The notes beneath the pieces are model-generated. The model ran no database searches. It was given only the letters and a program-made list of their open reading frames with translations, and was not told where the DNA came from. Below are positions 15,519-49,449 of a stretch of 49,449 nt of DNA, piece by piece. The position numbers and the translations under genes are program-made. The stretch is from a virus. Each line of letters opens with the position of its first letter. Position 1 is the stretch's first letter. The stretch lies in IMG/VR virus record IMGVR_UViG_3300021961_000145, positions 1 to 49,449 of that record; one strand, 5' to 3'.

Positions 15519-16208
15519 CTAATCGAGTAAAAAATTATTTAGTGAGTCTTTTAGGTTTATAGTTTCTTCTTTAGATTTTGATTCAGACATTTGTTGTTCT
15601 CTACTAGGTTCTTCACTATAAATCCAAGAACCTGGTGTAGATGGTGAGGTAACAATATCCCAACAAATTAACTCAAAGTCATCTTGTACCATATTCTTAC
15701 CACCTTCTTTTTCCAAAGAACCTACACCCCTAGATGATACGCCAATCTTTAATCCTTTTCTTAAATAATTTGCTACTCTGTCACCTTCACAAGATATGAT
15801 TCCCTGATTTACGAATCCTGGTGACATAATGATTTCTAGTTTACCCATAAGTACATTACCTTCCCACCATAAGTCTACCACATTATGGGAAATTCTACTT
15901 ACTGCAACAATAGATGATTCTGGATGATCCGCCTCACCTAATGCCCTTTTCTCTTTAACTAATTTAAGGTAATTTTCCGCCTCTCTTCTAAGGATTGCCT
16001 CAGGGTATACTCTTTCGTTTCTGTTTTCCACCCCATACTTTTGCATTACTGCATAAACAACCAAAGGTTCCTCTATAATAGGTTGACCTTTGGTTAAGTT
16101 TGACATTTCACTAATAAAGTGCCGATTATCTTTTGGAGAAATGTATCCTGCATCATATTCGATAAGGATACCTTTCTTTTTTATCTCATTCTTTTTTAAT
16201 ATTTCCAT
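15519..16208 (-). CDS. prohead maturation protease, T4 gp21-like
   Basis: This serine protease cleaves capsid, scaffold and internal proteins inside the prohead. The catalytic His is in LGEADHPESS (H95) and the nucleophile in KIGVSSRGVGSL (S158 or S159), as in T4 gp21 and related herpes-fold proteases. WDIVTSPSTPGSW near residue 185 is also conserved. Its own N-terminus holds an LIE (15-17), a possible self-processing site. The specificity of the family, (I/L)-x-E, matches sites in the capsid and in many proteins of this window. At 229 residues it is close to T4 gp21 (212). Confidence 0.93.
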   Translation of the reverse strand: MEILKKNEIKKKGILIEYDAGYISPKDNRHFISEMSNLTKGQPIIEEPLVVYAVMQKYGVENRNERVYPEAILRREAENYLKLVKEKRALGEADHPESSIVAVSRISHNVVDLWWEGNVLMGKLEIIMSPGFVNQGIISCEGDRVANYLRKGLKIGVSSRGVGSLEKEGGKNMVQDDFELICWDIVTSPSTPGSWIYSEEPSREQQMSESKSKEETINLKDSLNNFLLD

Positions 16209-35007: not shown

Positions 35008-35011
35008 AAAT

Positions 35012-35042
35012 TTTGTAGATTAAAAACTTTTTACTATATTTG
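35012..35042 (+). promoter_or_regulatory. Bacteroidota-type promoter for the first CAP-like gene
   Basis: TTTG (35012-35015) and TATATTTG (35035-35042) are separated by 19 bp; the ATG at 35059 follows after 16 bases. Confidence 0.8.
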
Positions 35043-35058
35043 TTTAAAATCAAACAAT

Positions 35059-35631
35059 ATGAAAAAGGTAATGACATTATTAATAGTATTCATACCACTA
35101 TTTATCTATTCACAAAATAATCCCGCAAAATTTTATGATAAAAATAAAACTTCTTACCCGATAGATGGAGAAATACTTAATTTATGTTCTAATTTTGCGA
35201 AAAGTGAAATAAATAAAGATAGTTTAATAAATGAAATTTATGTTTTATTTAATGAATATAGAAAATACGTTGGTCTGGACACCTTGATTTTAGACACCAA
35301 CCTATCTAAAGCTGCGGAAATACAATCTAAATACTGTCTATCTATTAAAGAAGTAACTCATGAAAACAAAAATTTCCCCACACCCAAAGATAGGTTAAAT
35401 AAAACTGTAAATGGTGATATAAAATGGACAGGTGAAATAATAACTATTTCTGATTTTTTAATTGGGTTATGTAGAAATAGGAGTTTAAGTGAGAGTGTCT
35501 TAGATAGTTTTTTTAATAGTTCGGCACATAAAAATATTATAGAACAAAGTGATTCTACGAAAATTGGGATTTCAGTACAAAAATTTAAAGATATAGTTTA
35601 TACGGTAATAATATTTGGTAAAAATAAATAA
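35059..35631 (+). CDS. exported CAP/SCP-like protein, 190 aa
   Basis: The N-terminus MKKVMTLLIVFIPLFIYSQN is a signal peptide with likely cleavage near YSQ. The mature part has CAP-superfamily features: FNEYRKYVGLDTLILDTNL with KAAEIQSKYC, then THEN, the central TGEIIT, and FFNSSAHKNIIEQS near the C-terminus, the last matching the 'W..S.gH..ni' element. CAP proteins are secreted and act on lipids, membranes or other proteins. It has its own host-type promoter. Promoter, leader and signal peptide are almost identical to the gene at 37927, so the two are paralogues. Confidence 0.7.
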   Translation: MKKVMTLLIVFIPLFIYSQNNPAKFYDKNKTSYPIDGEILNLCSNFAKSEINKDSLINEIYVLFNEYRKYVGLDTLILDTNLSKAAEIQSKYCLSIKEVTHENKNFPTPKDRLNKTVNGDIKWTGEIITISDFLIGLCRNRSLSESVLDSFFNSSAHKNIIEQSDSTKIGISVQKFKDIVYTVIIFGKNK

Positions 35632-35639
35632 TAATAATC

Positions 35640-37820
35640 CTATCCACCATAAGCTTCTGGACAAACCTTAGTTTTTTTAGGTTTACTTTGATTTACCCCC
35701 CCTTCAACACCACCATTTTTAGGTAATTTAAATCTTAATCTTAATTCCGCACCTATAATTGGTATTTTTATTTGACCTTTATATTTTGGGGGTGACGCAA
35801 ATGTTACTGGATAGTCACCACCTGATATAATCTCAACAATACCATTATCTTTTTCCGGTTTGGGGGGTATTTCTTTAACACCATTAAATACTACAGTAAT
35901 ACTAACTTTAGTGTATTTATATTTTTCATAATCCTCTCTATTGGAATGTGGTTCGCCATATTCATCACGGCTACCCTTAACTCTTTTAGCACCGTCACCT
36001 GTTGAATATCCTGTTTTGTTGCCAGTAATGTAGTTTGTCATTGGTTGGTCACCTTTAGGTATAAATTTAAATCCTGAAGGTGGGTTTGGCCCACTAGTCC
36101 CATCACCGTTTGATCCCTTCCAGTCTAATTCTATTTTAGTACCTGAGTCCATAACTAAACCATCATCTTTTAATTTCCCCAAAGTCTCCTCAATGTAGTC
36201 TTTAGCAGTTTTCATTCGTTCATTAGCTAATTGTGCAAATGTCATGTCTTCCGCTCCACCTGTGTTCCTAAACCTAGATGCTGAAGAAATTATTTTAATT
36301 TCGCTAACATATCCTCTCCATCCGTTTTCCCATTTAACAGCTGCCATATTATCTAGTTGTAATTTAATTCTTTCTGCAATACTGTTTACCCCCTCTACTA
36401 ATTTTGGCGCATCTTTTAATTCATATCTATTATCTACAAACATCTGAATTGGGGTTTCTCCTTCAGGTATAGTAAAATCGACAGAAATATTTTCTCCTGT
36501 ATTTTCATCTCCCGGATCTTCTATATCTGTCATCCATTTTAAATTACCTACCCTAACATATTTCCAATCATATTTTTCTAAACCTTCTAAATATCTTTGT
36601 ATTACATATACAGTATATTCTTTATAACCATCTTCTCTTGTGTCATTTGGATCATCAGGTTCTCCCGTCAACTCCGCCCAATTAGTTTTGGATGTAGAGT
36701 CCATTTTTTGTTTTAAAAACTTTTCATTTTCTTTAATATACGCATCCCATTGATCTTGTGGGATAGTTATTTTTGTAGATTCATCACCAATTTTCTTTAA
36801 GTAAACAGTTTGACCTTCTTTTTTTATACTACCCTTACCAATAGTTTTGTACTTTGTAACACCAATTCTTAATCGACTACCCTGAAAAGATCCCTTACCT
36901 TTTTTATCTACCCAAACCTTAATAAATCTTTTATATTTTTTTGGTCTTTTTTTGAACCATTGTTTAAATTTTTTCTTAAGCCATTTAATTGCATTAGCAA
37001 TACCTTTTGCTGCTGCCTCTAATAGTTTCCAAAGTCCTACACCTGCAGTCCAAACAATCATAGTAGGGAACATAGCAGAGTCAACTATTCTTCTCCAAAA
37101 CCAAACAAGAACTTTACTGAGTCCACAACAAGCTTTATTTTTTCTTGAACAATTACAAATGGTAAAAAGTATTTGGTTATATCTTTTATTCTGCCAAATA
37201 AATAAATCTGCGCCCCTTTGTCGCCATACACAATTACTATCTTTTAAACAAATCATGTCTTTCCAGTACTCCTTATAATCCCACTCTCTGTTATCTATAC
37301 CATATTCATTAATTAAATCAAAACTTTCGTTTGTTTGCGTATCACCACTTGTTTGCGTATCACCACTTGTTTGTGTACCCATTTCTCCAGCATTTTCTAT
37401 TGTAAAATAACCAAAAGTACCATCTTTTTCATTTGCAGTTAATATTATTTTACCTATTAACTTATCCATATCTTGAGAATCTTTAATTTCGACATTTGAA
37501 ACGTTTGGTTCTATAAGTTCTTTCATAAATTCCTCAAACTCTGGAGTATCCATAATTTCTTCGTCAGGGATTTCCTCAAACTCTTTGTCTTCCACAGTTT
37601 GCACTTGATTTTGTTCTTCTTGTTCCATTAACAACAAATCTTTTTTCCAATCAAAGTCGTCCTCTTCTGTTAATAAAAAACTATTGTTTATTTTTTCCTT
37701 TATAAAGGATTCTTCAACCAATGTATCAAACGAAGTAGTATTTTCCACATATTCTTTAGAATCGAAGTTCATTAACTTCCTCATTCTATATATTTCTTCT
37801 GTTAAATTTTGTTTTTTCAT
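35640..37820 (-). CDS. tagged protein with OmpA-like domain, 726 aa
   Basis: The leader MKKQNLTEEIYRMRKLMNFD has LTE (6-8) and the form '(I/L)xEE(I/L)xxM(K/R)(K/R)LMxF' shared with the 661-aa protein. Cys-rich residues near 205-235 precede a hydrophobic segment (about 240-270, FPTMIVWTAGVGLWKLLEAA) and a very basic stretch. Residues about 490-650 resemble an OmpA-like domain: IKIISSASRFRNTGG, then TFAQLANERMKTAKDYIE. It may insert in or span the envelope and bind peptidoglycan during DNA entry. It is the convergent partner of the first CAP-like gene. Confidence 0.65.
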   Translation of the reverse strand: MKKQNLTEEIYRMRKLMNFDSKEYVENTTSFDTLVEESFIKEKINNSFLLTEEDDFDWKKDLLLMEQEEQNQVQTVEDKEFEEIPDEEIMDTPEFEEFMKELIEPNVSNVEIKDSQDMDKLIGKIILTANEKDGTFGYFTIENAGEMGTQTSGDTQTSGDTQTNESFDLINEYGIDNREWDYKEYWKDMICLKDSNCVWRQRGADLFIWQNKRYNQILFTICNCSRKNKACCGLSKVLVWFWRRIVDSAMFPTMIVWTAGVGLWKLLEAAAKGIANAIKWLKKKFKQWFKKRPKKYKRFIKVWVDKKGKGSFQGSRLRIGVTKYKTIGKGSIKKEGQTVYLKKIGDESTKITIPQDQWDAYIKENEKFLKQKMDSTSKTNWAELTGEPDDPNDTREDGYKEYTVYVIQRYLEGLEKYDWKYVRVGNLKWMTDIEDPGDENTGENISVDFTIPEGETPIQMFVDNRYELKDAPKLVEGVNSIAERIKLQLDNMAAVKWENGWRGYVSEIKIISSASRFRNTGGAEDMTFAQLANERMKTAKDYIEETLGKLKDDGLVMDSGTKIELDWKGSNGDGTSGPNPPSGFKFIPKGDQPMTNYITGNKTGYSTGDGAKRVKGSRDEYGEPHSNREDYEKYKYTKVSITVVFNGVKEIPPKPEKDNGIVEIISGGDYPVTFASPPKYKGQIKIPIIGAELRLRFKLPKNGGVEGGVNQSKPKKTKVCPEAYGG
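37333..37380 (-). repeat. 18-bp tandem repeats in the OmpA-like gene
   Basis: Two exact 18-bp units (37333-37350, 37351-37368) and a partial third encode the hexapeptide DTQTSG repeated, a short flexible linker. Confidence 0.85.
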
Positions 37821-37839
37821 ATTTTAAATAATATATATT

Positions 37840-37847
37840 ATAAATAT
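37840..37847 (-). promoter_or_regulatory. ATATTTAT box (putative phage late promoter)
   Basis: CAATATATTTATAATATAT lies 19 bases upstream of the ATG at 37820. Confidence 0.45.
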
Positions 37848-37878
37848 ATTGTAATCTTAAAAAAAAAACATTGTTTTA

Positions 37879-37910
37879 TTTGTTTTATAAGATTATTTGT
37901 TTTATATTTG
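37879..37910 (+). promoter_or_regulatory. Bacteroidota-type promoter for the second CAP-like gene
   Basis: TTTG (37879-37882) and TATATTTG (37903-37910) are separated by 20 bp; 16 bases follow to the ATG at 37927, the same spacing as at 35059. Confidence 0.8.
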
Positions 37911-37926
37911 TATAAAATCAAACAAT

Positions 37927-38538
37927 ATGAAAAAGGTAATGACATTATTATTAGTATTAGTAACCTTAAATGGTTATAGTCAAACCAAAATAGATAACTC
38001 TAAAATAGAAAGATTATGTTTTGAGTTACATAATAGCCACAGAGATACTTCTCACCAAAGAAAAATTTCGAAAGATTGTAAAAAAGCAACTGATTATCAA
38101 ATTGATTATCTATTCAAAAATAATTTAGTTAGTCATGAAAATCCAAATTATGGATTTAAAAAACCATCAGAAAGATATTCTAAATTTAATACAGATAGTA
38201 TAAAAATTAAATCATTACAAAATAAAAGAGGTTGGGTTAAATTTGAAAAGACTTCTTATGCTGGTGAGATAATAACTATGGGCTCTGGTCATATTTACAA
38301 AAAAGATTCTCTTTTGGAAATCAGCATATCAAAACAAATAATAAAAAATTTTGTTTCTTGTCCAGGTCATTACTATATAATGAAAGACGTTTCATATGAA
38401 ACAATTCGAGAGTTTGGTTATTTTTCTGTAAGAACAAAAATATTAGAGGAAACTAATGACACTGTAAAAGTATATTTTTTATGTGTTGGTATGTTTGGTA
38501 GTGAGATGTATACAAACCCTGAATGGATTGTAAAATAA
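37927..38538 (+). CDS. exported CAP-like protein, paralogue of the 35059 gene, 203 aa
   Basis: The start is the ATG at 37927, not an upstream TTG inside the promoter. MKKVMTLLLVLVTLNGYSQT is a signal peptide differing from the first paralogue at few positions. The mature part keeps VSHEN, AGEIITMGSG and IIKNFVSCPGHYYIM, which align with THEN, TGEIIT and FFNSSAHKNII of the paralogue, but is otherwise diverged and has extra Lys-rich loops. Both are probably secreted effectors acting in the periplasm or on the surface. A G/C hairpin follows the stop. Confidence 0.7.
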   Translation: MKKVMTLLLVLVTLNGYSQTKIDNSKIERLCFELHNSHRDTSHQRKISKDCKKATDYQIDYLFKNNLVSHENPNYGFKKPSERYSKFNTDSIKIKSLQNKRGWVKFEKTSYAGEIITMGSGHIYKKDSLLEISISKQIIKNFVSCPGHYYIMKDVSYETIREFGYFSVRTKILEETNDTVKVYFLCVGMFGSEMYTNPEWIVK

Positions 38539-38542
38539 AAAA

Positions 38543-38561
38543 GGGGGTATAACCAACCCCC
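38543..38561. terminator. bidirectional terminator between convergent genes
   Basis: GGGGG (38543-38547) pairs with CCCCC (38557-38561). On the - strand it is followed by TTTTTTATTTT, serving the 661-aa gene; on the + strand a weaker T-rich stretch follows. Confidence 0.8.
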
Positions 38562-38594
38562 TTATTTGTCTATTTGTTATTAATATAATCCTGT

Positions 38595-40580
38595 TTAATC
38601 TCTACGTTTTCGATCATTGATATCCATTTGGATATCATACAATTTTATTTCTTCTTTTCTACGAAGTTGTTCTAAATTTTTTAAGTCTTTACCTATTGCT
38701 TTTTGAACTTTTTTACCTAAATATCTTAATTGTTTATCACTATATCTAGGTTCAGAACTTAACATATCCATTATTATTTTTTTCTTACTAGGTGGTGATG
38801 ATGTTTTATTAGTACACCCCATAGGTATCAAACTATAAGTAAATCCGTACAATCTATAATATGTTTCATTTTTTACATTTATAACATCTTCAGGTTTATA
38901 CGCATAAAATGCATCTTTATTGGGTTTAGGAAAACATATGCCGGCCACCTCTAAAAATTCATAATCACAAAATGGGTACCATGTTTGAAAAAATGATTTT
39001 TGGGAACCGGCAATCATAGCATTCCCTCTATTTCCTTTTTCACCTTCTAAAGTTACATCACCAGCACTTGTCTTTATAACTAAATTATATCCCTCTAAAG
39101 ATGCCTTTACACCGTATGAATATTTATGTAACATATTTATTGTTCCTCTATCAGGTGAATCTTTTTTCATAAAAATATTATTTTCACTAACGTATACTTC
39201 TTCACCTTTTCTTAAAACAGTGAATTTTTTTACACCTGAAGGAGTATTGATGTTAGCTAATTCGACAGAATATCCAGCACTTTCTAAATCATCAATTAAT
39301 ATTTTAATGGGGGTTGAATCTTGTCTATTTATGTTATTATATCTATGTAAAGGAGCGTTAAATCGTAATTGTATACTTCTATATTGTTCACCACGATATT
39401 GTTCTCCCTTCCCATAATATTCTATAGAGGGTAATTCTTTTATAACTAAATCAACTCCTAATTTTTCTTTAACTCTTTGTAAAAAAACTTTTTTATATTC
39501 AGTTGCCCTATTAGTCGCTAAAAATTTATTCATATCGTGTTTCATTTGTACACTTCTTTCCTTTCTCGGTAACTTTTCAATACCGCCATAGTCATGATCT
39601 AACCCGCCAGTACAAGGTGGACCAGGTAACCATCCAGGTGCTGCGGCATCTGCTTGACCTAATATTGTAATATTTGTTAGTTTAGAAAGTGCCGTTTTCC
39701 CTTCAACATCTGGTGGAGCGGATATATATTTTTTTAATCTTTCTATAATTATATCCATTTCTCTTACCACATCAGGATCTGACATATTTGGTTTTATCAT
39801 ATTATCACAATATGTTTTAACCGTTTTATTTATATCTACATCATCAAAAGTAATATCTACAAATTCTTGTGGGTCAGGATTAGGTGATAATTTTGTGGAC
39901 CCTGGTTTTGTTATTGCTTCTAATAAATTTAATCTTCTTGCTTCAGGAAATTCAGTATTAGGGTTTGGTATATTATACGCATTTGCATATGTTTGAGAAT
40001 CTCCAATATCTAAAATAATGCTCCCTGTGGTGTTGCCATTCCAATTACTTCCTTTAGAAATAGATTCTCTATTTTTTAATTCTTCTTTGTAGTTTAAGTT
40101 ATCTTCAATAATTGACTCAACATAATCGTCAAGTTCAACATCTGAAACAATTCTTTCAGAATTTCCAAACTCATCCACTCTGACAGAACGTAATTTTTTA
40201 AATTTCTCATTCTCTTTTAATTGAGAAAAAAGTAACACATCACCTGTAGTATTAAAAAGTTTATTACCCTCCTTTGTTGGTAAAAATTTTCCAGTTTCAA
40301 CCTTTAATGTCCCAATTTCTATTAATTTTGGTTTTCCATTTTTTTTAAAAATCATAAGAAAATACTTATCTTCACCAAAAAAATCGACAGATTCATTTAG
40401 TCTTTGACTTTCTATTTTATTCAACCCCTTTTCCAATAAAATATTTTTTACTTCAGTACTCTTATTGAAATTTTCTTCCGCTAATGAATCATGAGAATTT
40501 TCATTAATGCTAAATGACATTAATCTCTTCATTTTATTAAGTTCTTCGTTAATATTTTGTGGGGACTTACCTCTTCTCAT
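38595..40580 (-). CDS. tagged protein with OmpA-like segment, 661 aa
   Basis: The leader MRRGKSPQNINEELNKMKRL then MSFSINEN carries INE twice and LAE further on, and has the same 'xEExxxMKRLMxF' form as the 726-aa protein. Residues about 300-365 resemble an OmpA-like core: TNITILGQADAAAPG, then KFLATNRATEYKKVFLQRVK, equivalent to 'I.G.TD....N..LS..RA..V...L'. The C-terminal helical end is charged. It is the convergent partner of the second CAP-like gene, repeating the layout 35059-37820. I infer an internal protein acting at the envelope. Confidence 0.65.
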   Translation of the reverse strand: MRRGKSPQNINEELNKMKRLMSFSINENSHDSLAEENFNKSTEVKNILLEKGLNKIESQRLNESVDFFGEDKYFLMIFKKNGKPKLIEIGTLKVETGKFLPTKEGNKLFNTTGDVLLFSQLKENEKFKKLRSVRVDEFGNSERIVSDVELDDYVESIIEDNLNYKEELKNRESISKGSNWNGNTTGSIILDIGDSQTYANAYNIPNPNTEFPEARRLNLLEAITKPGSTKLSPNPDPQEFVDITFDDVDINKTVKTYCDNMIKPNMSDPDVVREMDIIIERLKKYISAPPDVEGKTALSKLTNITILGQADAAAPGWLPGPPCTGGLDHDYGGIEKLPRKERSVQMKHDMNKFLATNRATEYKKVFLQRVKEKLGVDLVIKELPSIEYYGKGEQYRGEQYRSIQLRFNAPLHRYNNINRQDSTPIKILIDDLESAGYSVELANINTPSGVKKFTVLRKGEEVYVSENNIFMKKDSPDRGTINMLHKYSYGVKASLEGYNLVIKTSAGDVTLEGEKGNRGNAMIAGSQKSFFQTWYPFCDYEFLEVAGICFPKPNKDAFYAYKPEDVINVKNETYYRLYGFTYSLIPMGCTNKTSSPPSKKKIIMDMLSSEPRYSDKQLRYLGKKVQKAIGKDLKNLEQLRRKEEIKLYDIQMDINDRKRRD

Positions 40581-40591
40581 AAAAATATTTT

Positions 40592-40744
40592 TTATCCTCT
40601 ACGTCTTCTTGGTGAGGGTGCAGTTCTTCTACGTGATTCTGAAATTTGATTTCTTTTTTCTCTTTTTACTTCATTAACGATTCTTTCAATCATTGACACC
40701 ATTTCTGATTCTGTAAGTCTAATAGTTTTTTTACCTCTTCTCAT
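40592..40744 (-). CDS. 50-aa tagged protamine-like peptide
   Basis: The frame ATG 40742-40744 to TAA 40592-40594 encodes MRRGKKTIRLTESEMVSMIE, then RIVNEVKRE and a tail ending RRRTAPSPRRRRG. The first half is a clear copy of the shared leader, with LTE and VNE. The rest after that site is extremely Arg-rich, like DNA-condensing protamines. After cleavage only about 20 basic residues would remain, a good candidate for neutralising packaged DNA. The gene fills the gap between two tagged genes. It is too small for default gene callers. Confidence 0.7.
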   Translation of the reverse strand: MRRGKKTIRLTESEMVSMIERIVNEVKREKRNQISESRRRTAPSPRRRRG

Positions 40745-40769
40745 TTTTTTATTATTTTATTTTTTATTA

Positions 40770-42416
40770 TTATCTTGATGTAATTAATGCCCCTAAAGAT
40801 CCTTTCAATAATTCCTGATACTCCGCTTTATTCTCAGGTGATAAATTCTCAATAGCGTTATCATCAATACCAAATCGAATAAAATCATCCAAACTCAACA
40901 ATTTTTCGATAACACCAACATTTACTTTAGTAATTGGGTTACCTTTTACATTTATTGAAAATAGGTTTGGTAATTTTTCATATCCTTCTAGTGGTGCTTC
41001 TTTAATGTTATTGTTTTGGAATGACATCATAGTTAATGGTGCATCCAATGGTAGATGATTAATCGGTGGAAGTTCATTAACATTTGACCCTTCCGCCAAT
41101 ATCGCATCTAAATTCTTAAATTTACTTAAATCAGGTAATTTACCTATATTCATACCACTAAAGTCTAATCTATCTGTAGTTTCTGGATCTAAGAAATCTG
41201 TTACTACAACACCTTCAGTATTTTCCATTAACCATTTTAAGTATTTGTTTTGTTGTAAAGGAACATTTTGTTCACCCGCCAATTTTTTAATGTTTGCAAC
41301 TCCCTTATTAAACGATTCTTTACTGATATGATCTTCAGCCCTACCACCGAATTTATTAAGATATTTAATATATGGACTATCCATTAACCCTGTACCTCTT
41401 GTCACATCCATCTCTACTAATGCGCCCAACTCTCTTTTAAAGAAATCTCTAAGCCCTGAAAATCTACTTAAAATTTCGTCCAATTTTCCACCACGCTCAA
41501 TAGATGAGTTATTTTTATCGTGTAACTGACCAGACTCAAAATGGAATTGTAATGGGAATACACCACCTTCATCGTCTCCATCAAAAAGTTTCTTAGGCAT
41601 TACCACATAGTAATCAGATATTGAACCATCTGGTTTAGGATTATTTCTTCTATAATTATCGAAGAAACTATTACCTGGTCTTCTAGTACACCAACCAGCC
41701 ATATGTTCTAGTGGATCACAACTAGATTCAAGAGTTAATGGTGTGTAAACCAATACGTCATTATCTCTATACGCCAATCTAGCTTCACCTAAATCAATAT
41801 ACTTTTTAAGTTTTTTCCATAATTTACTTTCACCATCATCATCTTCATCATCTTCTGCACCAACAAATGGACTCACAATAGAATAAAGATGTGCTAGATC
41901 ACTATACTGATTAATGTCTGTAACATTCTGAGGTGCATTTGGTCTATTTGGCGCACTTCTCTTAAATACTTTTTTGTTCTTAACTTTGTCAAAGACACCT
42001 AAGAATTCGTTTGCCTCTGGTAAATCTTCCGCTAAAAATCTAACCGCTTGATCAATATCCCCATCTTTAATGTGATTTAAGAATACCTGAATCATCCACT
42101 GCACATATTGTTTGTTACTTGATGGATCCGCATCGACTATATCTTGAAATATTGGTTCCGTTAATTTAATAGATTGTTTATTGTTCCTATTCGTTACAAT
42201 ATATGCGATATCAATACCCTCATGATTTTCAATAGGTTCTACAGTAGTTCCTCTACGTCTACCGCCACCTTCTGGTCTTTCATCCTCTCTTTCGTTTTCA
42301 CCTTCCACTGCTTGATCTAAAATCTCCTGACTAATAACATTTTGGTTTCTTAGATAATCAACCCTATCTTCTCTTAATAAAATCTTATACTGATTTTCAG
42401 AAATAATGTATTTCAT
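40770..42416 (-). CDS. tagged protein with WCT-type and leucine-rich repeat domains, 548 aa
   Basis: The leader MKYIISENQYKILLREDRVD has ISE (5-7) and LRE. Residues about 215-320 (VLVYTPLTLESSCDPLEHMA, GWCTRRPGNSFFDNY, then FPLQFHFESGQLHDKNNSS) resemble a phage domain marked by 'G..TKWCTA' and a late 'fmDenD'; its activity is unknown. Residues about 410-520 contain degenerate leucine-rich repeats (LDFSGMNIGKLPDLSKFKNL; FSINVKGNPITKV). LRRs normally bind proteins, which would suit an ejected effector. An ATATTTAT box lies upstream. Confidence 0.7.
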   Translation of the reverse strand: MKYIISENQYKILLREDRVDYLRNQNVISQEILDQAVEGENEREDERPEGGGRRRGTTVEPIENHEGIDIAYIVTNRNNKQSIKLTEPIFQDIVDADPSSNKQYVQWMIQVFLNHIKDGDIDQAVRFLAEDLPEANEFLGVFDKVKNKKVFKRSAPNRPNAPQNVTDINQYSDLAHLYSIVSPFVGAEDDEDDDGESKLWKKLKKYIDLGEARLAYRDNDVLVYTPLTLESSCDPLEHMAGWCTRRPGNSFFDNYRRNNPKPDGSISDYYVVMPKKLFDGDDEGGVFPLQFHFESGQLHDKNNSSIERGGKLDEILSRFSGLRDFFKRELGALVEMDVTRGTGLMDSPYIKYLNKFGGRAEDHISKESFNKGVANIKKLAGEQNVPLQQNKYLKWLMENTEGVVVTDFLDPETTDRLDFSGMNIGKLPDLSKFKNLDAILAEGSNVNELPPINHLPLDAPLTMMSFQNNNIKEAPLEGYEKLPNLFSINVKGNPITKVNVGVIEKLLSLDDFIRFGIDDNAIENLSPENKAEYQELLKGSLGALITSR

Positions 42417-42433
42417 AATTTAATTTTTATTAT

Positions 42434-42441
42434 ATAAATAT
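42434..42441 (-). promoter_or_regulatory. ATATTTAT box (putative phage late promoter)
   Basis: GATATATTTATATAATAAAA lies 17 bases upstream of the ATG at 42416. Confidence 0.5.
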
Positions 42442-42459
42442 ATCGTTTTTATTAAAAAT

Positions 42460-43275
42460 TTATTTATTTTTTTTCTTGACCACATTACCAAATATATGGT
42501 TACCAATAGTCACAGTTTTTTTCCAAGTGGTCGTATCACTTTCTTTTGTCCAGTTAGGTGTTACATAATTTGCATAATAATAATTAGCTCCTTTTGTTAT
42601 ATCTTTAATAGAGTCTATAGATTTTGCAATACTAATTGCAATTTCCATTTTATCATGATTAATATATTTTTTATAAACATCTTCTAAAGTTTCTTTACCA
42701 CTATTATATTTATTCCACATAGAAAATTGTTTATTAGCTAATGCCTGTGAAGTTACAGTAGTACCTTTACTTAAATGATTGCTTTCTGCTCTATTTCTAA
42801 GTACGTTCGCTACTGCTTGCATACCTTTTTGGTAATCAGATTCACCTCCCGCCTCACCAATAAGTGTACAAACAATTATTTTTTCACTTTTAGTTAGTTT
42901 ATTAAATAAAGATTCGGGAGTATTACCTTCTTTTTCTTCTTTTTCTTCTTTTAATTTTTTAATTGCGTTTTTACCTACTTTAATAGTTTTTTCACATTCT
43001 TCATATCCTAAAAAATCACAAAGTGCCTCTAAAGTCTTTTCACCAAAGTAACCCATTTTACCATCCCATTTTAAATTACCAGCAGATTTTAATTTTTTCT
43101 GTACAAATACTATTGCAGAATTACTAGATCCATTACAATAACCCAATTCCAATGTTTTACCCTCTTCTATATCCTCCAAAGTAATTAATTTATCTTCTTT
43201 TTCACCATTTGGACATGGAGACTCACTTTCTAAAATTATTTTTCTTAATTGTCTTTCTGTAATTATAATTTTCAT
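42460..43275 (-). CDS. tagged peptidoglycan hydrolase, SleB domain
   Basis: Leader MKIIITERQLRKIILESESP has ITE (5-7) and ILE (14-16). Residues about 48-90 (SNSAIVFVQKKLKSAG, GYFGEKTLEALCDFLG) look like a peptidoglycan-binding domain. Residues 130-265 match the SleB cell-wall hydrolase family: TLIGEAGGESDYQKGMQAVA with catalytic Glu probably E141, then NVLRNRAE, KQFSMW, and a C-terminal TIGNHIFG. It cleaves glycan strands. No signal peptide or holin is present. With the tag this suggests a virion-borne hydrolase that opens the cell wall for DNA entry, not a lysis endolysin. Confidence 0.85.
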   Translation of the reverse strand: MKIIITERQLRKIILESESPCPNGEKEDKLITLEDIEEGKTLELGYCNGSSNSAIVFVQKKLKSAGNLKWDGKMGYFGEKTLEALCDFLGYEECEKTIKVGKNAIKKLKEEKEEKEGNTPESLFNKLTKSEKIIVCTLIGEAGGESDYQKGMQAVANVLRNRAESNHLSKGTTVTSQALANKQFSMWNKYNSGKETLEDVYKKYINHDKMEIAISIAKSIDSIKDITKGANYYYANYVTPNWTKESDTTTWKKTVTIGNHIFGNVVKKKNK

Positions 43276-43287
43276 ATTTATAAATAT
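43274..43287. promoter_or_regulatory. palindromic ATATTTAT box serving two divergent genes
   Basis: ATATTTATAAATAT is a perfect 14-bp palindrome containing one ATATTTAT box on each strand. The ATGs of the hydrolase (43275, -) and the HNH gene (43288, +) sit at its two ends. Confidence 0.5.
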
Positions 43288-43722
43288 ATGAAATTACCAT
43301 TAAAAAACAATAAAAGTAAGAAAAAACGTTTAAAAACTAGTAATTTGTCAACAGATTCGACAAAAAACAACAAATTAAAGTATTTAATACGTAAAATTAC
43401 AAAAAAATACCCTAAAATCAAACAAAAAATCAAAAATATTAAAGATTTAGAGAAAAAATTGTATTATGCGATGGTTTGGGAGGTTACAGAACAACAACCT
43501 TTGTATATTTTAGAAAATTCTGACAAAAGAGGGTGGAAAAACTACCATATTGATCATATTTATCCCATTTCTATGGGGTATAAAGACAAAATACCACCAG
43601 AGAGGATTGGAAACATCAAAAATTTACGATTTATTCACTATACGGAGAACTTAGATAAAGGATCTAAGATAACAAATGAGTCCAGAAACGCATTAAGAAG
43701 AATAAAAAGGTTAAAGAAATAA
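43288..43722 (+). CDS. HNH endonuclease-like protein, 144 aa
   Basis: The start is the ATG at 43288; an upstream reading would run back into the divergent gene. Residues 1-60 are very basic. The HNH-like core is YHIDHIYPISMG (86-97; H87, D89, H90), KNLRFIHYTENLDKGSK (111-127), the latter equivalent to 'NLq.lc..cN..KG'. Zinc-binding Cys pairs are absent. It may be a free-standing homing or packaging-associated nuclease, or a host-DNA nuclease. It overlaps the next opposing gene by 12 bases. Confidence 0.7.
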   Translation: MKLPLKNNKSKKKRLKTSNLSTDSTKNNKLKYLIRKITKKYPKIKQKIKNIKDLEKKLYYAMVWEVTEQQPLYILENSDKRGWKNYHIDHIYPISMGYKDKIPPERIGNIKNLRFIHYTENLDKGSKITNESRNALRRIKRLKK

Positions 43723-44508
43723 TCCTTTATGGATAATAATGTAAAACTGACCATCAACAAAGACTTTTTGAATTTTAGGTGTCTTATAAAATTTCAAAAT
43801 ACCATATAGTTTATCTCCACCACCCATTTCTAAAATATCTTTATAATACTCACACAAATCACCCCTATTCCATCCTAAAGAATCTATAGGGTAATGCCAA
43901 TATGAATAAAAGTAAGATTTTTCCCTATCTAACCCATCAAAAGTTACACCATTTTCCTCTTGCCATTCTTCATCTTCCATCTTTTCCACAACTTCGGGTA
44001 AAATATCTTCCCACATCCTATCTTTTAATCCCTCACTCCATTGATTAGTTTTAACAAAGTAATTATCCCATACAAACTCAAAAAAATTATCATCACAAAG
44101 GAAAATATTATCGTTTACATACGACCAAAATTCTTTTTCTAATATTACATCTGCAACCTCTATTTTCTTACCACCATTTTTATAGTTTATTATAAACTCA
44201 TATAACCATTTAATAGTTTCTTCAGTATAAAAACCTTTTAATAATGGATTTTCTACTTCACCTACACCATTAAAAAGGATTTGTAAAACATCATCGACAT
44301 CTTTTTTTATTTCGTTACTTAGTCTAGAGATAAAATCATCTAATGTTTCACCCGGCCAATCTTTAACATCCCTATTTTCTAAAGAATTAATGTAGTTATA
44401 TATACGTCTATATGAAAACTTTAAAACCCCTAATGCAAATTTATTTTGTGCATTAGGGGTTAGGTTTTCTTCGTTTAAAATTTTTCGTATATTCTTCTTT
44501 AATGACAT
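43711..44508 (-). CDS. tagged acidic protein, 265 aa
   Basis: The leader MSLKKNIRKILNEENLTPNA has LNE (11-13) and matches the 'IRKILKEE' type. The body is acidic and rich in Trp, Tyr and Phe (FWSYVNDNIFLCDDNFFEFV), resembling the 364-aa and 342-aa products in composition. No catalytic motif is recognised. A strong inverted repeat lies within codons 16-28. The downstream gene overlaps convergently by 12 bases. Confidence 0.75.
   Translation of the reverse strand: MSLKKNIRKILNEENLTPNAQNKFALGVLKFSYRRIYNYINSLENRDVKDWPGETLDDFISRLSNEIKKDVDDVLQILFNGVGEVENPLLKGFYTEETIKWLYEFIINYKNGGKKIEVADVILEKEFWSYVNDNIFLCDDNFFEFVWDNYFVKTNQWSEGLKDRMWEDILPEVVEKMEDEEWQEENGVTFDGLDREKSYFYSYWHYPIDSLGWNRGDLCEYYKDILEMGGGDKLYGILKFYKTPKIQKVFVDGQFYIIIHKGLFL
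44425..44461 (-). repeat. 13-bp inverted repeat inside a coding 5' end
   Basis: AACCCCTAATGCA (44425-44437) and TGCATTAGGGGTT (44449-44461) are perfect complements with an 11-nt loop. In the - strand RNA the stem is followed by UUUU and lies about 48 nt after the start codon of the 265-aa gene. It could attenuate transcription. Confidence 0.6.
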
Positions 44509-44509
44509 A

Positions 44510-44704
44510 TTAAGAATTCATAAGAGAGATAGCCTGTCTTACCAATTCCTCCTTCTGTTGTTCTAAAAGTTGTACTTTAGCCTTTTGGGTATCATTTAGT
44601 TCTGATCCCGCAGCTTCTGACTTAATGTCTGAGATTTGACCATCTAATTTGTCATGTCTCAACAACAAAGAATGGTATAATTGTGCTTTTTGTTCGTTAT
44701 TCAT
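44510..44704 (-). CDS. small coiled-coil protein, 64 aa
   Basis: The product MNNEQKAQLYHSLLLRHDKL... is two amphipathic helices joined near residue 32-38 (AGSELNDT). The stop is adjacent to the next ATG (44508), so it is co-translated with the 265-aa gene. It lacks the tag. No family is recognised. Confidence 0.7.
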   Translation of the reverse strand: MNNEQKAQLYHSLLLRHDKLDGQISDIKSEAAGSELNDTQKAKVQLLEQQKEELVRQAISLMNS

Positions 44705-44731
44705 AATTTTTATTTTTTAAAAACGTTATTA

Positions 44732-45244
44732 TTAGTTTATACCTAATCTATTTCTATACCTATTATGTACAGTTCCAAACATCTTAGACATCTTAGATAT
44801 CATATCCTGCATACTTTCTATCTGATTTAAAATAGACATAACTAATTCTTGTTTAGTCATATCATATGATAACCCAGTATCCCCAGAGTATAATAATCTT
44901 AAATAGTTTTGTAACTTCTTTAATACTAATTTATAGTCACCTATTAAATTTTTAAAGTCATTATCTAAATAAATTTCATTTTCTAAATTATTGATCATAT
45001 CAATATCAATATTTAATTTATGGGTTAAATTAGAAATAAAATTAGTTATCATTTGTTTATTTTCTAATTTACCACTCATAGACATTTCTATAAATGTATT
45101 AAGTATTTCTACTGTAGTTGCTAATGTTTGTAATAAAGGTGATTGCACACTTTGTGCGTGTATATTCATAATATCTTTATCATCATATCCACCTACTTCA
45201 TTAAGTACTCTTTTTAGTTGTGATTCTGTAATTCTTATTTTCAT
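44732..45244 (-). CDS. tagged helical protein, 170 aa
   Basis: The ATG at 45244 gives MKIRITESQLKRVLNEVGGY, the clearest example of the shared leader, with ITE (5-7) and LNE (14-16). A longer upstream reading would include the ATATTTAT box and is rejected. The rest is wholly helical and Met/Leu/Ile/Asn-rich, like T4 internal proteins. No enzymatic motif is seen. It is a strong candidate for an abundant internal head protein. Confidence 0.78.
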   Translation of the reverse strand: MKIRITESQLKRVLNEVGGYDDKDIMNIHAQSVQSPLLQTLATTVEILNTFIEMSMSGKLENKQMITNFISNLTHKLNIDIDMINNLENEIYLDNDFKNLIGDYKLVLKKLQNYLRLLYSGDTGLSYDMTKQELVMSILNQIESMQDMISKMSKMFGTVHNRYRNRLGIN

Positions 45245-45249
45245 ACTAT

Positions 45250-45257
45250 ATAAATAT
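45250..45257 (-). promoter_or_regulatory. ATATTTAT box (putative phage late promoter)
   Basis: AATATATTTATATAG ends 5 bases before the ATG at 45244; such short spacing would give a near-leaderless mRNA. Confidence 0.45.
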
Positions 45258-45274
45258 ATTTTTTTTATAAAAAG

Positions 45275-45306
45275 TTTGTGCAATCCAAATTTTATTATTA
45301 TATTTG
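45275..45306 (+). promoter_or_regulatory. Bacteroidota-type promoter for the 174-aa exported protein
   Basis: TTTG (45275-45278) and TATATTTG (45299-45306) are separated by 20 bp; the ATG is only 4 bases further on, implying leaderless translation. Confidence 0.8.
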
Positions 45307-45310
45307 TTTT

Positions 45311-45835
45311 ATGAAAAAATACATTTTAATATTAATAACAATAGTTTTAACTAGTTTAACGACATTTTCTCAAACAAAATGGGACGGTAAGTTTCCTTGG
45401 TATTCTGCAGATAGATATGGGGATATAAGAAGGGGGATATCATTATCTAGTTCTTCTACAGAAGTTTATTACCTCGATGAAGTTAAAAATATGAATAAGT
45501 TTCAAAAATCAGTGGATACTTTAATATTTTCAGAAAATGATAAATTTTTAAAGTATTTTTTTGATTTTGAAAATAAAAAAGTTACAGCAATTAACCTTCG
45601 ATCTAAAACTATGGAGGTTTATGATGTGTTAAGGATAAAAAAACGTAAAATCAATAAGGAAAAAACGGAAGGTGTCTTTACTTTAAAAATAAAAAAAGGA
45701 AAGACTAAAATTAATTACTATGTGAATACCTATGATAGATACTTCTGTAAGGTAATATATTCTAAAGAAGAAAAAATGGGTGTTGTACTTTCTAACGATA
45801 TAGATGGTTGGGGATATAAAACCGATGAGGATTAA
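45311..45835 (+). CDS. exported hypothetical protein, 174 aa
   Basis: The start is the ATG at 45311. MKKYILILITIVLTSLTTFS followed by QTKWDG is a signal peptide with likely cleavage near FSQ. The mature part is basic and beta-rich (DVLRIKKRKINKEKTEGVFT), with no recognised domain. It is the third exported gene in this window with a host-type promoter and, like the others, stands alone between late genes. A strong terminator overlaps its stop codon. Possible envelope-modifying or superinfection-exclusion factor. Confidence 0.72.
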   Translation: MKKYILILITIVLTSLTTFSQTKWDGKFPWYSADRYGDIRRGISLSSSSTEVYYLDEVKNMNKFQKSVDTLIFSENDKFLKYFFDFENKKVTAINLRSKTMEVYDVLRIKKRKINKEKTEGVFTLKIKKGKTKINYYVNTYDRYFCKVIYSKEEKMGVVLSNDIDGWGYKTDED

Positions 45836-45848
45836 TCATCGGTTTTTT
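45821..45848. terminator. bidirectional terminator overlapping two stop codons
   Basis: ACCGATGA (45821-45828) pairs with TCATCGGT (45836-45843) with a 7-nt loop, followed by TTTTTT on the + strand. The stem includes the ends of both convergent genes (stops at 45833-45835 + and 45832-45834 -). Confidence 0.85.
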
Positions 45849-46017
45849 CTTGTACTTCTACCTCCTCTATTTCCATTTGTCGATTTCTGAGTTTTTCTAT
45901 TTCTTTCATAAACTCTTCTTGAAATAATTTTTGAACTCTCTTTTGCTCAGACTTAATTCTTTCTGTTCTAATCTTTGATTTTTGTTTTTGGTTTTTTCTG
46001 TGTCTACTTTTTGGCAT
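45832..46017 (-). CDS. small charged protein, 61 aa
   Basis: The product MPKSRHRKNQKQKSKIRTER... is strongly basic in residues 1-28 and acidic in 40-61, with one long helix between. A basic N-terminus with an acidic tail suggests a nucleic-acid or ribosome contact regulated by the tail. It overlaps the opposing gene by four bases and shares its terminator. No family name can be given with certainty. Confidence 0.7.
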   Translation of the reverse strand: MPKSRHRKNQKQKSKIRTERIKSEQKRVQKLFQEEFMKEIEKLRNRQMEIEEVEVQEKTDD

Positions 46018-46066
46018 AATGTAAATTTTTATATTTTAATATTAATGAAATTTTGTAATAATGTCA

Positions 46067-46074
46067 ATATTTAT
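46067..46074 (+). promoter_or_regulatory. ATATTTAT box that decides the start of the DUF192 gene
   Basis: CAATATTTATTGATATG places the box 4 bases before the ATG at 46079. An alternative ATG at 46061 would put the promoter inside the gene, so 46079 is preferred. Confidence 0.45.
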
Positions 46075-46078
46075 TGAT

Positions 46079-46480
46079 ATGAAATTATTAGATTTAATAT
46101 TAAAAGATGTTTCTGCACCATTTAAAGAATCTTGTGTGTTAACTATTACTAACACTAACGGTGAAGAAGTGGTTGTCGATTGTGAGGTACCATCTACGGA
46201 TGAAGAAAAAATGACTGGGTTAATGTACAGAGATAGTCTATGTGATAATTGTGGTATGTTTTATGATTATGTTGATGGTGGTTTTTGGATGAAGAATGTT
46301 AATTTCCCAATAGAAATGGTCTTTATTAATGGAGATAAAATAGTGGACATTCAAAAAGCGTTACCACACGATGAAACTTCTATACAACCATCTGTAGAAT
46401 CTGACGGCAACTTAGAAGTTAATGAAGGTTTTTGTGAATCTAATAATATATCTGTAGGAAATAAAGTTTACAGATCATAA
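46079..46480 (+). CDS. DUF192 family protein, 133 aa
   Basis: The product has the DUF192 pattern: CEVPSTDEEKMTGLMYRDSL, then GMFYDY, GGFWMKNVNFPIEMVFI, and KIVDIQKALPHDE. The usual family form is 'GLM.R..L....GMlF.f....fWMknt.ipLDi.fid'. The function of the family is unknown; its core is a small beta barrel. It has no signal peptide, unlike many bacterial members. The last 13 bases overlap the opposing metalloprotease gene. Confidence 0.85.
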   Translation: MKLLDLILKDVSAPFKESCVLTITNTNGEEVVVDCEVPSTDEEKMTGLMYRDSLCDNCGMFYDYVDGGFWMKNVNFPIEMVFINGDKIVDIQKALPHDETSIQPSVESDGNLEVNEGFCESNNISVGNKVYRS

Positions 46481-47496
46481 ATCTCTGGATTAATTTTCCC
46501 AAATTTTCTAACTAACACTCCCGCTTTGGAGTTTGCTTCATCCTCCCAAGGAGAACCATCCTCACCCTCTTCTGGGTTACCCCTTAAATCTCCTCTACTA
46601 TTTTGTTTGTGATGAACCATTTCATGTGCAATAGATCTGATAATATCAGGTATCGCCCTACCCTTTGTTAGAACGTTTATTTCTCCATCTATCATATCAT
46701 AACTCGCAAGAGTCTCAATATCGTCTCCATTACTTGTTAAATTAACTCTAAAGTCATCACCTAAAGATAATTCTCCCCTACCAAATTCAATAAAATCATC
46801 AATAACTGACTCATTTAATTTTTTTATCGTTGGGGATTCATCATAATTATCCAAACCTAACTCTGAGAGTCTTTCTGGTAACTTACTATAAAATGAATCT
46901 AATATATATTCATACATGTCAGTATCCCCAATCCCATAAGACTTATTTAGTGAATCCATTATTTTCAACCTATCACTAGAATTACTTTTACATAGATGAC
47001 TGTATGAATCACTAACAAAGTTATATCTTATTGGACATAAAAAATATGGTATATGTTTGATTTTCATATTTAAATCTTTTTGCGGTAATATCCATTCCCC
47101 ATATTCACCCGAATTCTCGTCATACCCTATTATATCTTGATCCACTAAACTATGTAACCAATCATATAACACTTCTAACTGAAATTCATCATAACTATAA
47201 AAATCATTAGGTTTATCTATACGATAATATTCTCCTTCATCATACGGATCTTCTTCATCAACACTATACCACCAACCTAATTTTTGAAAAACTTTATCGT
47301 TGTGTATTACTTCATCCATTTCAGATTCTAATATACCCATATCCATTAATTCCCCAACACTACCAAAAGACATCTGTCGGTTTTTATTGTTTTCCAAATA
47401 AACATCAGATAAAAGTCTGTTCACAACCTTGTCGCAGAATTTTTTATCAACTACTTCTAACTCTTCTTTTAATATTTTCCTAATTAATCTTTTCAT
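46468..47496 (-). CDS. tagged zinc metalloprotease-like protein, 342 aa
   Basis: The leader MKRLIRKILKEELEVVDKKF has LKE (9-11). The C-terminal region holds an HExxH zinc motif, IAHEMVHHKQ (HEMVH at 291-295), and a downstream SPWEDEANSKAG (E318/E320) that can supply the third ligand, as in gluzincins. Residues about 240-285 (EFGRGELSLGDDFRVNL) lead into the motif. The N-terminal 200 residues are acidic and aromatic. As an ejected protease it could cut a host protein at the start of infection. Target unknown. Confidence 0.75.
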   Translation of the reverse strand: MKRLIRKILKEELEVVDKKFCDKVVNRLLSDVYLENNKNRQMSFGSVGELMDMGILESEMDEVIHNDKVFQKLGWWYSVDEEDPYDEGEYYRIDKPNDFYSYDEFQLEVLYDWLHSLVDQDIIGYDENSGEYGEWILPQKDLNMKIKHIPYFLCPIRYNFVSDSYSHLCKSNSSDRLKIMDSLNKSYGIGDTDMYEYILDSFYSKLPERLSELGLDNYDESPTIKKLNESVIDDFIEFGRGELSLGDDFRVNLTSNGDDIETLASYDMIDGEINVLTKGRAIPDIIRSIAHEMVHHKQNSRGDLRGNPEEGEDGSPWEDEANSKAGVLVRKFGKINPEIYDL

Positions 47497-47991
47497 TTAG
47501 TGTTTCCAAAAATGTTCTTGTTTATGGTGATCCGCCATAATTTTACAAAATTTTGCCAATTTTTTATACTGTTCTATTATTGATAGTTCATCAGTCAATT
47601 CATAATCGTCATACATCATATTAATAAACCCATCAACCAACCCCACTGAATGTAATGAAGCCAACTCTTCTTTAGTGTTAACATTTTGTACATCTACTTG
47701 ACTAAATAATTCTGAGTTCACTGGTTTATCGTAAAAAGGTAACTCAAACCCTACTATTTGTAACTTACCAACACCAATTGGACTTAGTAAAGGTCTTATT
47801 TCGCGTTTAACTTCTTTAGTTATCCATTCCATAACTTCTGGTTCAGTAGATGGTTTCCATATAAATTCTCTATTTTCATCATCCCATGTCGCAAAATGTC
47901 TTATAGGACTATGTCTCATCTTTTTTAGTTTGGACATTTTACCCATACCCTCACTTTCCTCTTTTAATATTTTCTTTATTATATTTTTCAT
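47497..47991 (-). CDS. tagged hypothetical protein, 164 aa
   Basis: The leader MKNIIKKILKEESEGMGKMS has LKE (9-11) and is nearly the same as that of the adjacent metalloprotease (MKRLIRKILKEELE). The body is alpha/beta with EVMEWITKEVKREIRPLLSP and a C-terminal DHHKQEHFWKH that is His-rich. Metal binding by this tail is possible. The stop codon is directly adjacent to the metalloprotease start. No family is recognised. Confidence 0.72.
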   Translation of the reverse strand: MKNIIKKILKEESEGMGKMSKLKKMRHSPIRHFATWDDENREFIWKPSTEPEVMEWITKEVKREIRPLLSPIGVGKLQIVGFELPFYDKPVNSELFSQVDVQNVNTKEELASLHSVGLVDGFINMMYDDYELTDELSIIEQYKKLAKFCKIMADHHKQEHFWKH

Positions 47992-48440
47992 TATTGTGTA
48001 AATGAAGAAGTATTATCTGGTTCAATAACCTCAAACTCATCCGTACCCACTAATAGACTCAGTGTCCTACCATTGTCCCATTGAACGTCTAAATGATCTT
48101 CACCGAACATATAAACAGTACTTACTTTTTTAACTGTTCCTGTAGTATTTGGTTCAATGGGGTTAGGATCGTCTGTCATTTTTATTAGTCTTATTCTATC
48201 ACCAGGTAACGCCAATTTACCATTACCATAATTATCCCTAATCCATCTTCTAACTATTTTATAATATAAATCACTGTTTTCTTCTATACCATATTTCTCA
48301 ATTTCATCACTAACATAGTCCATTGATAAATCTAATACTGAATTGAATAAGTTCATTTCTTTTTTAGGCCATTTCTCTTTATTAAATCTTTGATTTAACC
48401 TACTAACTACCTTATCAACAAATCTACTTTCTGCGTCCAT
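47991..48440 (-). CDS. DUF4314-domain protein, 149 aa
   Basis: Residues about 78-140 (LPGDRIRLIKMTDDPNPIEP, TGTVKKV, LDVQWDNGRTLSLLVGTDEF) match the DUF4314 pattern 'GdRI.Li.M.DDp.pi..G..GtV......i.V.WDnG..L.l..g.D', a small SH3-like barrel. The N-terminus FVDKVVSRLNQRF resembles residues 20-30 of the metalloprotease (FCDKVVNRLLSDV). No clear (I/L)xE leader is present. Start and stop overlap neighbours by one base (TAATG type), so it is in one operon. Confidence 0.8.
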   Translation of the reverse strand: MDAESRFVDKVVSRLNQRFNKEKWPKKEMNLFNSVLDLSMDYVSDEIEKYGIEENSDLYYKIVRRWIRDNYGNGKLALPGDRIRLIKMTDDPNPIEPNTTGTVKKVSTVYMFGEDHLDVQWDNGRTLSLLVGTDEFEVIEPDNTSSFTQ

Positions 48441-48441
48441 A

Positions 48442-49083
48442 TTACATAGGGTTGTATTCTCCCATTTTAAATGGTTCTAAAACAGGATTAATTGCGTGTA
48501 GGGAGTAACTTCCATCTGGACGATATTCTGCGTACACAAACTCCGCACCCAATACTTTATGTGTCCCATCCGCAGTATGAAAGAAATCAGAAATAAAAGG
48601 ATTATACTTTATTTCTTCCGCCATATCTTTTAATGTTACAGGATCATCGGGTAGTTCTTGTACCACACCACCAACACCAACAACTTGTGAACGTTTTGAC
48701 ATTTCGCCAGCGTCTTTAGTAGTTCTCATAATGTTATGATATCCGGGACTAATATCAAAATTAATATTCCCACCTATTAATAAATCATTTGTATAACCTA
48801 TAATACCGGGAGTACTATGTTTTCTCCCACTTTTAGTTCTACCATAGACCCCAAACGCACCATTCTTATTGTGCATTATATTATGTCTGTTTGTGTGAAA
48901 CCAAACCTCTTTTCCCAATAATTCTGGTGAATCACCTTCTAAATAACCATGTTGTGCTTTTGGTGCAACAACAGGTTCTCCCATTTCAGGATAATAAGGT
49001 GGTGTTTCATTTATTAAATGACCCCTCATCTCCATTAAAAGGTTAACCTTTTTTATATTGTTTCTTTTATCTTTTGTTCTCAT
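48442..49083 (-). CDS. tagged hypothetical protein, 213 aa
   Basis: The leader MRTKDKRNNIKKVNLLMEMR is basic with LME (16-18), then LINE (24-26: INE). The body includes LGKEVWFHTNRHNIMHNKNG and GAEFVYAEYRPDGSYSLHAI, an alpha/beta pattern I cannot assign. It starts 5 bases after an ATATTTAT box, the first gene of a four-gene unit ending with the metalloprotease. Internal virion protein by inference. Confidence 0.72.
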   Translation of the reverse strand: MRTKDKRNNIKKVNLLMEMRGHLINETPPYYPEMGEPVVAPKAQHGYLEGDSPELLGKEVWFHTNRHNIMHNKNGAFGVYGRTKSGRKHSTPGIIGYTNDLLIGGNINFDISPGYHNIMRTTKDAGEMSKRSQVVGVGGVVQELPDDPVTLKDMAEEIKYNPFISDFFHTADGTHKVLGAEFVYAEYRPDGSYSLHAINPVLEPFKMGEYNPM

Positions 49084-49088
49084 ATTCT

Positions 49089-49096
49089 ATAAATAT
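49089..49096 (-). promoter_or_regulatory. ATATTTAT box (putative phage late promoter)
   Basis: GTATATTTATAGAATATG places the box 5 bases upstream of the ATG at 49083, in the gap after the partial last gene. Confidence 0.45.
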
Positions 49097-49106
49097 ACAA
49101 ATTTTT

Positions 49107-49449
49107 TTAATAATAAGATAACTTATCGTTTAAAATTTCATTAAAGTATCCCCAATCAATATCTCCCGCACCACCATATCTAAAATGTCTATCGGTATTT
49201 ATTGATATACATTCTTCTGGTAAAAAATAATTATATTGTGAGTTCTTCCAACCATCTCTTTCTTCCTCCAATATAGAATCTAAAATATCGTCAAATGTAG
49301 GATAACCACGTTCTAAATGTGCATAAAGAAAATCCTTAAAATGTTCAGAAGATGCAATGTCACCCAACTCCACTTCTCCTACATATTCTAACCCAAATCC
49401 TTTATTACCTTCTTTATCTACTGGTGGTTGTAATTTACCATTAAAATTA
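49107..49449 (-). CDS. 3' part of a hypothetical acidic protein (5' end outside window)
   Basis: The frame stays open from the stop at 49107 to the window edge. A GTG at 49371-49373 is not the likely start, because upstream codons continue as coding-like sequence (NGKLQPPVDKEGNKGFGLEY). The visible 113 residues are acidic and aromatic (YPTFDDILDSILEEERDGWK). No family is recognised. Confidence 0.6.
   Translation of the reverse strand, partial: NFNGKLQPPVDKEGNKGFGLEYVGEVELGDIASSEHFKDFLYAHLERGYPTFDDILDSILEEERDGWKNSQYNYFLPEECISINTDRHFRYGGAGDIDWGYFNEILNDKLSYY

Follow-up and report, generated by a model that had tools for sequence, protein, structure and literature searches.

Does a peptidoglycan hydrolase gene in a T4-like phage encode an ordinary lysis enzyme, or does the short leader at its N-terminus direct the product into the phage head? 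The window analysed here (the whole stretch, 49,449 bp) is a fragment of a T4-like genome whose gp23 major capsid protein, gp20 portal and S77 head protease matches are all well above cut-offs, and the gene in question is an intact open reading frame (ORF) with an ATG start at 42460–43275 on the minus strand, 271 amino acids long. The first-pass annotation had described its product as a complete peptidoglycan-binding plus SleB hydrolase behind a textbook leader. The hydrolase half of that description holds: Hydrolase_2 (PF07486, Pfam) matches residues 149–262 (42490–42831) with 50.9 bits against a cut-off of 27, the ORF falls into PHROG 938 (endolysin), and a Foldseek search with an AlphaFold2 model of moderate confidence (six-sequence alignment, mean pLDDT 73) returned the SleB catalytic domains 4fet and 4f55 as the three best PDB matches (E 0.003–0.009, probability 1.00). 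Glu141 (42853–42855), invariant among six tagged (leader-bearing) SleB relatives that include a divergent pair, is a candidate catalytic glutamate by analogy with the SleB family. The binding half is weaker than claimed; residues 52–88 (43012–43122) are a probable peptidoglycan-binding region, but their PG_binding_1 score is 14.4 bits against a cut-off of 23 (22.5 bits in the relative L234). A sequence search of solved structures gave no match to the protein, and annotated phage records matched its catalytic domain only, none reaching 80% query coverage.

The leader is present as described: codons 1–16 (43228–43275, minus strand) read MKIIITERQLRKIILE and end in IILE followed by Ser, with a predicted cut after Glu16, and in the AlphaFold2 model residues 1–17 form, at low confidence, a short helix apart from the remaining structure. 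DNA coding for ITERQLR has a single mismatch-free site in the window, which is this leader. A degenerate DNA pattern for MKIIITExQ detects at least 120 stretches in viral contigs. Leader-type starts were found on 201 ORFs of the fetched contigs (130 after near-duplicate removal), counts that do not represent independent events because the contigs share ancestry and are fragments, some of them fetched because they bear the leader; it is common to more than 100 otherwise unrelated proteins. An [ILVMF]xE motif with its Glu at residues 14–17 occurs in 77 of the 130 non-redundant leaders (59%), compared with 13.6% after shuffling of residues 10–24 and 8.9% for internal windows, and these controls rule out a chance origin of the [I/L]xE leader ends, even though a single match means little (T4 lysozyme e also has IDE near its start). 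Position P3 is Ile or Leu in 72 of the 77 motif-bearing leaders and the following residue is most often Ser; the other 41% of the non-redundant set have no [ILVMF]xE at residues 14–17. Codon entropy is the same in the leader as in the protein bodies, which argues for selection on amino acids rather than on DNA, and together with an Rfam search of 35000–49449 that gave no match it rules out a DNA or RNA element behind the conservation.

How does this leader compare with those of T4? The T4 ipII and ipIII leaders end in IAE and the gp23 site is LTE, and cleavage at these sites is known in T4. The window encodes a T4 gp21-like prohead protease of the Peptidase_S77 family (15519–16208, minus strand; Pfam 83.2 bits; PHROG 207, head maturation protease) and a gp23-like major capsid protein (12236–14005, minus strand; Pfam Gp23, 244 bits) whose putative propeptide ends in LLNE followed by STS; in a 36-sequence alignment that includes the window, this end is conserved as [LI][LI][NTSC]E and then [SAT]. 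An acidic ORF between the two (14041–15417, minus strand), for which Pfam and PHROGs gave no family match, is a candidate scaffold gene by its position. The protease itself begins with MEILKKNEIKKKGILIE followed by YDAG, and ILIE followed by YDAG is kept in the likely protease of G021, a near-complete 294-kb relative, a pattern that is consistent with self-processing. T4 leaders of 10–20 residues load unrelated, even foreign, proteins (PMC5694885), and the features of the T4-type capsid-targeting sequence (CTS) recur here: a propeptide of that length, an [I/L]xE end, the same leader on unrelated proteins and an encoded S77 protease. The idea that this leader is a capsid-targeting peptide of the T4 type is thereby well supported at the level of sequence, by its recurrence, its [I/L]xE end, the presence of S77 and gp23, selection on its amino acids and the exchange of the body behind it (below); delivery of the enzyme from the head, which the first-pass annotation attached to that idea, is a prediction from the same comparisons.

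Leaders of this general kind are frequent in the window. By one fixed rule, simple enough to yield false positives, the tagged ORFs number 16 of 35 on the minus strand and 2 of 19 on the plus strand, against 8.1% in an internal control. Examples, all on the minus strand, are the ORFs at 43711–44508 (MSLKKNIRKILNE), 44732–45244 (MKIRITESQLKRVLNE), 46468–47496 (MKRLIRKILKE), 47497–47991 (MKNIIKKILKE) and 21472–22323 (MKIKLTESQYGKIISE). G021 has 20% tagged ORFs against 5.9% in the control, clustered in some regions and almost lacking at 120–180 kb. The 24 large leader-bearing contigs include 15 with S77 and 14 with gp23, and all seven that exceed 250 kb have both.

The best evidence that the enzyme may be a head lysin comes from comparison of its slot among related contigs. 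In G035, whose major capsid protein is 82% identical, a GH24 lysozyme with the leader MKIIITENQLKRLIIE occupies the SleB position. The exchange can be followed at the DNA level in L217: window positions 43223–43672 and L217 1961–2411 form a 78% alignment that spans the upstream flank and the leader and stops within codon 18, homology restarts at the stop codon (42300–42461 against L217 1301–1462, 83%), and the bodies between these aligned flanks are unrelated. The slot is bordered downstream by a conserved tagged protein with a weak leucine-rich-repeat match (40770–42416, minus strand) and on its other side by a conserved divergent HNH-like ORF (43288–43722, plus strand) that matches PHROG 5104 (E 3.6e-10; function unassigned), has weak HNH/endonuclease VII matches and is also present in L217, L222 and L235. 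A divergent tagged SleB lies between the same two neighbours in G028 and L235. Another set of contigs also shows alternation, of SleB (L001, L114) with GH24 (L134, L145, L149, L182, L194), beside one neighbour family. The simplest reading of these arrangements is that selection maintains a leader plus a peptidoglycan hydrolase in the slot while the enzyme may be exchanged; the HNH-like ORF, if a homing-type nuclease, could drive the swaps.

Which hydrolases carry the leader, and which do not? A scan of the 130 tagged proteins identified GH24 Phage_lysozyme in 14, LysM in 10, Hydrolase_2 in three and ECF sigma factors in three. The analysis yielded six distinct tagged SleB proteins, from the window, L001, L114 (the same one in L233), L234, L235 and L222, and tagged M23 proteins from G019 (two), G073 and probably G021. 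Tag status follows enzyme family: SleB is tagged in 6/6 cases and Amidase_2 in 0/8 (Fisher 3e-4, kinship ignored), GH24 is usually tagged and M23 is tagged in some cases. The untagged Amidase_2 genes are in G002, G003, G008, G019, G020, G021, G072 and G074, and all of these contigs except G020 also have a tagged SleB or GH24, giving seven in which tagged and untagged hydrolases coexist; G021, moreover, has both an untagged 152-aa and a tagged 298-aa lysozyme. This coexistence argues against reading the tagged enzyme as just the endolysin. L242, L244 and L247 encode an untagged peptidoglycan-binding domain plus amidase. A shorter Amidase_2 group of 200 aa has weak matches (32–45 bits), and some of its members may be inactive or degenerate. 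One SleB and one M23/VanY protein, both tagged, were found in the 128-kb G073, where the families searched gave no untagged hydrolase.

Several observations concern the lysis genes of these phages more generally. The family of ~200-aa Amidase_2-like proteins (L246, 1372–1971, minus strand; L248, 1435–2034, plus strand; L243, L245 and L249) seems to lack the first zinc-ligand histidine in some members, and in several large contigs its genes are flanked by membrane-protein and secreted-protein genes, a neighbourhood that is a candidate lysis cassette. In G015 a tagged GH24 gene adjoins a membrane-protein gene that is also found near untagged amidases, and this locus is possibly a lysis cassette as well. 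Other potential lysins were discarded: the 'lysozyme' annotated in Flavobacterium phage vB_FspM_immuto, a cultured relative with this type of leader, matches only DUF7936, and this phage gave no GH24, SleB, M15, M23 or Amidase_2 match, while PF13539 matched once, in G066, and PF08291 not at all.

We propose, with a probability of about 0.6, that the SleB ORF encodes a lysin that is packaged in the head, processed by the head protease and ejected. Its leader, like a T4 capsid-targeting sequence, would carry the newly made enzyme into the prohead core, and the phage S77 protease would cut it after Glu16; the processed 28.6-kDa enzyme would remain in the head alongside the DNA, exit via the tail at infection and cut peptidoglycan at the phage entry site by SleB-type lytic transglycosylation. 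Packaging and cleavage are predicted from sequence, and ejection and the timing and place of action are predictions as well; action at entry is less certain than packaging and cleavage, since in T4 the internal proteins end up in the cytoplasm, and the proposal raises the question of how a contractile-phage head protein would reach peptidoglycan. The head-lysin proposal is also weakened by the 41% of leaders that have no motif at residues 14–17, by the possible lysis cassette in G015, by the weak scores of the 200-aa amidases and by the set of hydrolases found in G073. We hold more tentatively, at a little under even odds, the wider view that T4-like Bacteroidota phages have an exchangeable ejected-lysin slot, in which a constant head-targeting leader is joined to interchangeable hydrolases with unrelated folds (SleB, GH24 or M23) and ECF sigma factors are additional cargo, and use separate untagged amidases or lysozymes for lysis.

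Internal head lysins are on record for T7, SP6, phiKMV and phi29, all podoviruses, and the T4 gp5 and phiKZ gp181 enzymes are in the baseplate (PMC5380687). The SleB protein would share with T7 gp16, SP6 gp36 and phi29 gp3 the property of being a peptidoglycan hydrolase that is held in the head and ejected (PMC5380687), but the podoviral lysins, except gp3, are large parts of an extensible tail, whereas this is a separate 28.6-kDa enzyme that has a T4-type leader and belongs to a phage whose head is of the gp23/gp20/gp21 kind; it would be a T4-type-tagged myovirus variant of them. With gp5 and gp181 it would have virion-borne wall opening in common, although those two are leaderless baseplate proteins. 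It resembles T4 ipII, ipIII and Alt in the short [I/L]xE-ending leader found on unrelated proteins and in the accompanying gp21-type protease and gp23 (PMC5694885), and differs from them in its peptidoglycan hydrolase cargo, in the sequence of the leader and in that its packaging and cleavage are predicted. Other SleB/Hydrolase_2 hydrolases, the PHROG 938 endolysins included, have the same catalytic family and fold, but a signal peptide or a free N-terminus in place of a capsid-type leader. An N-terminal signal also loads DarB into the head of the myovirus P1, but no consensus leader was found to be common to the P1 Dar proteins, and the cargo is an antirestriction protein (PMC9024508). In a literature search of incomplete coverage, no myovirus lysin with a natural capsid tag came up.

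Could the SleB protein instead be an ordinary endolysin that acts late, with a holin encoded elsewhere, its leader being incidental or simply carried along in leader-mediated recombination? Its PHROG class, the usual endolysin plan of a binding plus a catalytic domain, the lack of a second visible lysin in the 49,449-bp fragment and the membrane-protein gene beside the tagged lysozyme of G015 would all fit. Against this explanation, the leader is kept while the enzyme is swapped, the tag separates SleB from Amidase_2, and seven related contigs with a tagged hydrolase encode an untagged one too. Nor is there a holin-like neighbour: as the first-pass annotation had noted, the SleB ORF has no export signal, and no signal-peptide-like or transmembrane stretch is present in it or in its minus-strand neighbours, so that the adjacent holin or membrane lysis gene of a canonical lysis cassette is not seen in this partial contig. 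The closest ORFs with a signal-peptide-like stretch, at 45311 and 37927, lie on the opposite strand. Since the window is a fragment, the absence of a second lysin or a holin from the phage is not to be concluded from it. Overall we consider the endolysin explanation unlikely, though worth serious attention. (Plus-strand ORFs with signal-peptide-like starts, at 35059–35631, 37927–38538 and 45311–45835, lie amid the minus-strand tagged genes, and that at 35059–35631 matches a PHROG named sporulation protein.)

The leader might also be an N-terminal signal of another kind that the head protease leaves uncut, serving for instance membrane or assembly-site targeting or protein stability, but this is rather improbable. 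The leaders without [ILVMF]xE at residues 14–17 and the great dissimilarity of the tagged proteins, ECF sigma factors among them, could be accommodated in this way, but the strong [I/L]xE enrichment at the leader end, its match to the capsid protein propeptide and to T4 CTS, the S77 gene in all seven of the largest leader-bearing contigs and the T4 precedent of CTS leaders on unrelated internal proteins (PMC5694885) argue against it. Least probable is a tail or baseplate lysin that replaces the gp5 lysozyme domain. The gp5-like protein of the window (8593–9906, plus strand) indeed has no visible lysozyme domain, as had been remarked: its sole match is to an OB domain and stays under the cut-off (Phage_base_V, 17.5 bits), none was found to the lysozyme families of Pfam and PHROGs, and its single-sequence structure model (mean pLDDT 30) is unusable. 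A lysozyme gene does adjoin the tail sheath gene in the related contig G034, but it has no tag, the tagged slot has accessory genes rather than tail genes around it, and plus-strand genes, the gp5-like one included, are seldom tagged. The more specific suggestion that wall opening moved from gp5 to the SleB protein is not supported, given this tail-side lysozyme, the location of most of the tail region outside the contig and the precedent of phage P1, which also lacks a gp5 lysozyme and in which the tape measure is thought to serve instead (PMC9024508).

The best matches of the major capsid protein include Flavobacterium and Rhodothermus phages, and the gene set resembles that of freshwater phages for which Bacteroidota hosts are predicted (PMC9723584), so the host is probably a member of the Bacteroidota. 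If the head-lysin proposal is correct, there would be a group of contractile-tailed phages whose entry lysin is in the head and not on the tail, one leader would be able to load very different enzymes, and many genes annotated as 'endolysin' in environmental phage contigs would encode entry enzymes. Injected proteins of large phages, of which few are in culture, would become predictable by a sequence rule, and chosen enzymes could be packed into phage heads by means of a natural leader.

The same leader is found on ECF-type sigma-70 factors (L170, 6780–7346; L174, 8108–8668; L195, 6533–7093; all minus strand), and if it is capsid-targeting there, a sigma factor would be injected together with the DNA of these phages. 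Tagged DHH-type phosphoesterase-like proteins of ~500 aa with an FHQDLDGVTT motif (L088, L091, L175, L180, L186 and L205) are a further candidate family of injected enzymes. Finally, ATATTTAT occurs 39 times in the window against 17 expected, a number that none of 100 shuffles reached, often just upstream of a start codon, in tagged as well as untagged genes (for example at 43280–43287, 42434–42441, 45250–45257 and 49089–49096), and may serve this phage as a late promoter or as a start-region signal.
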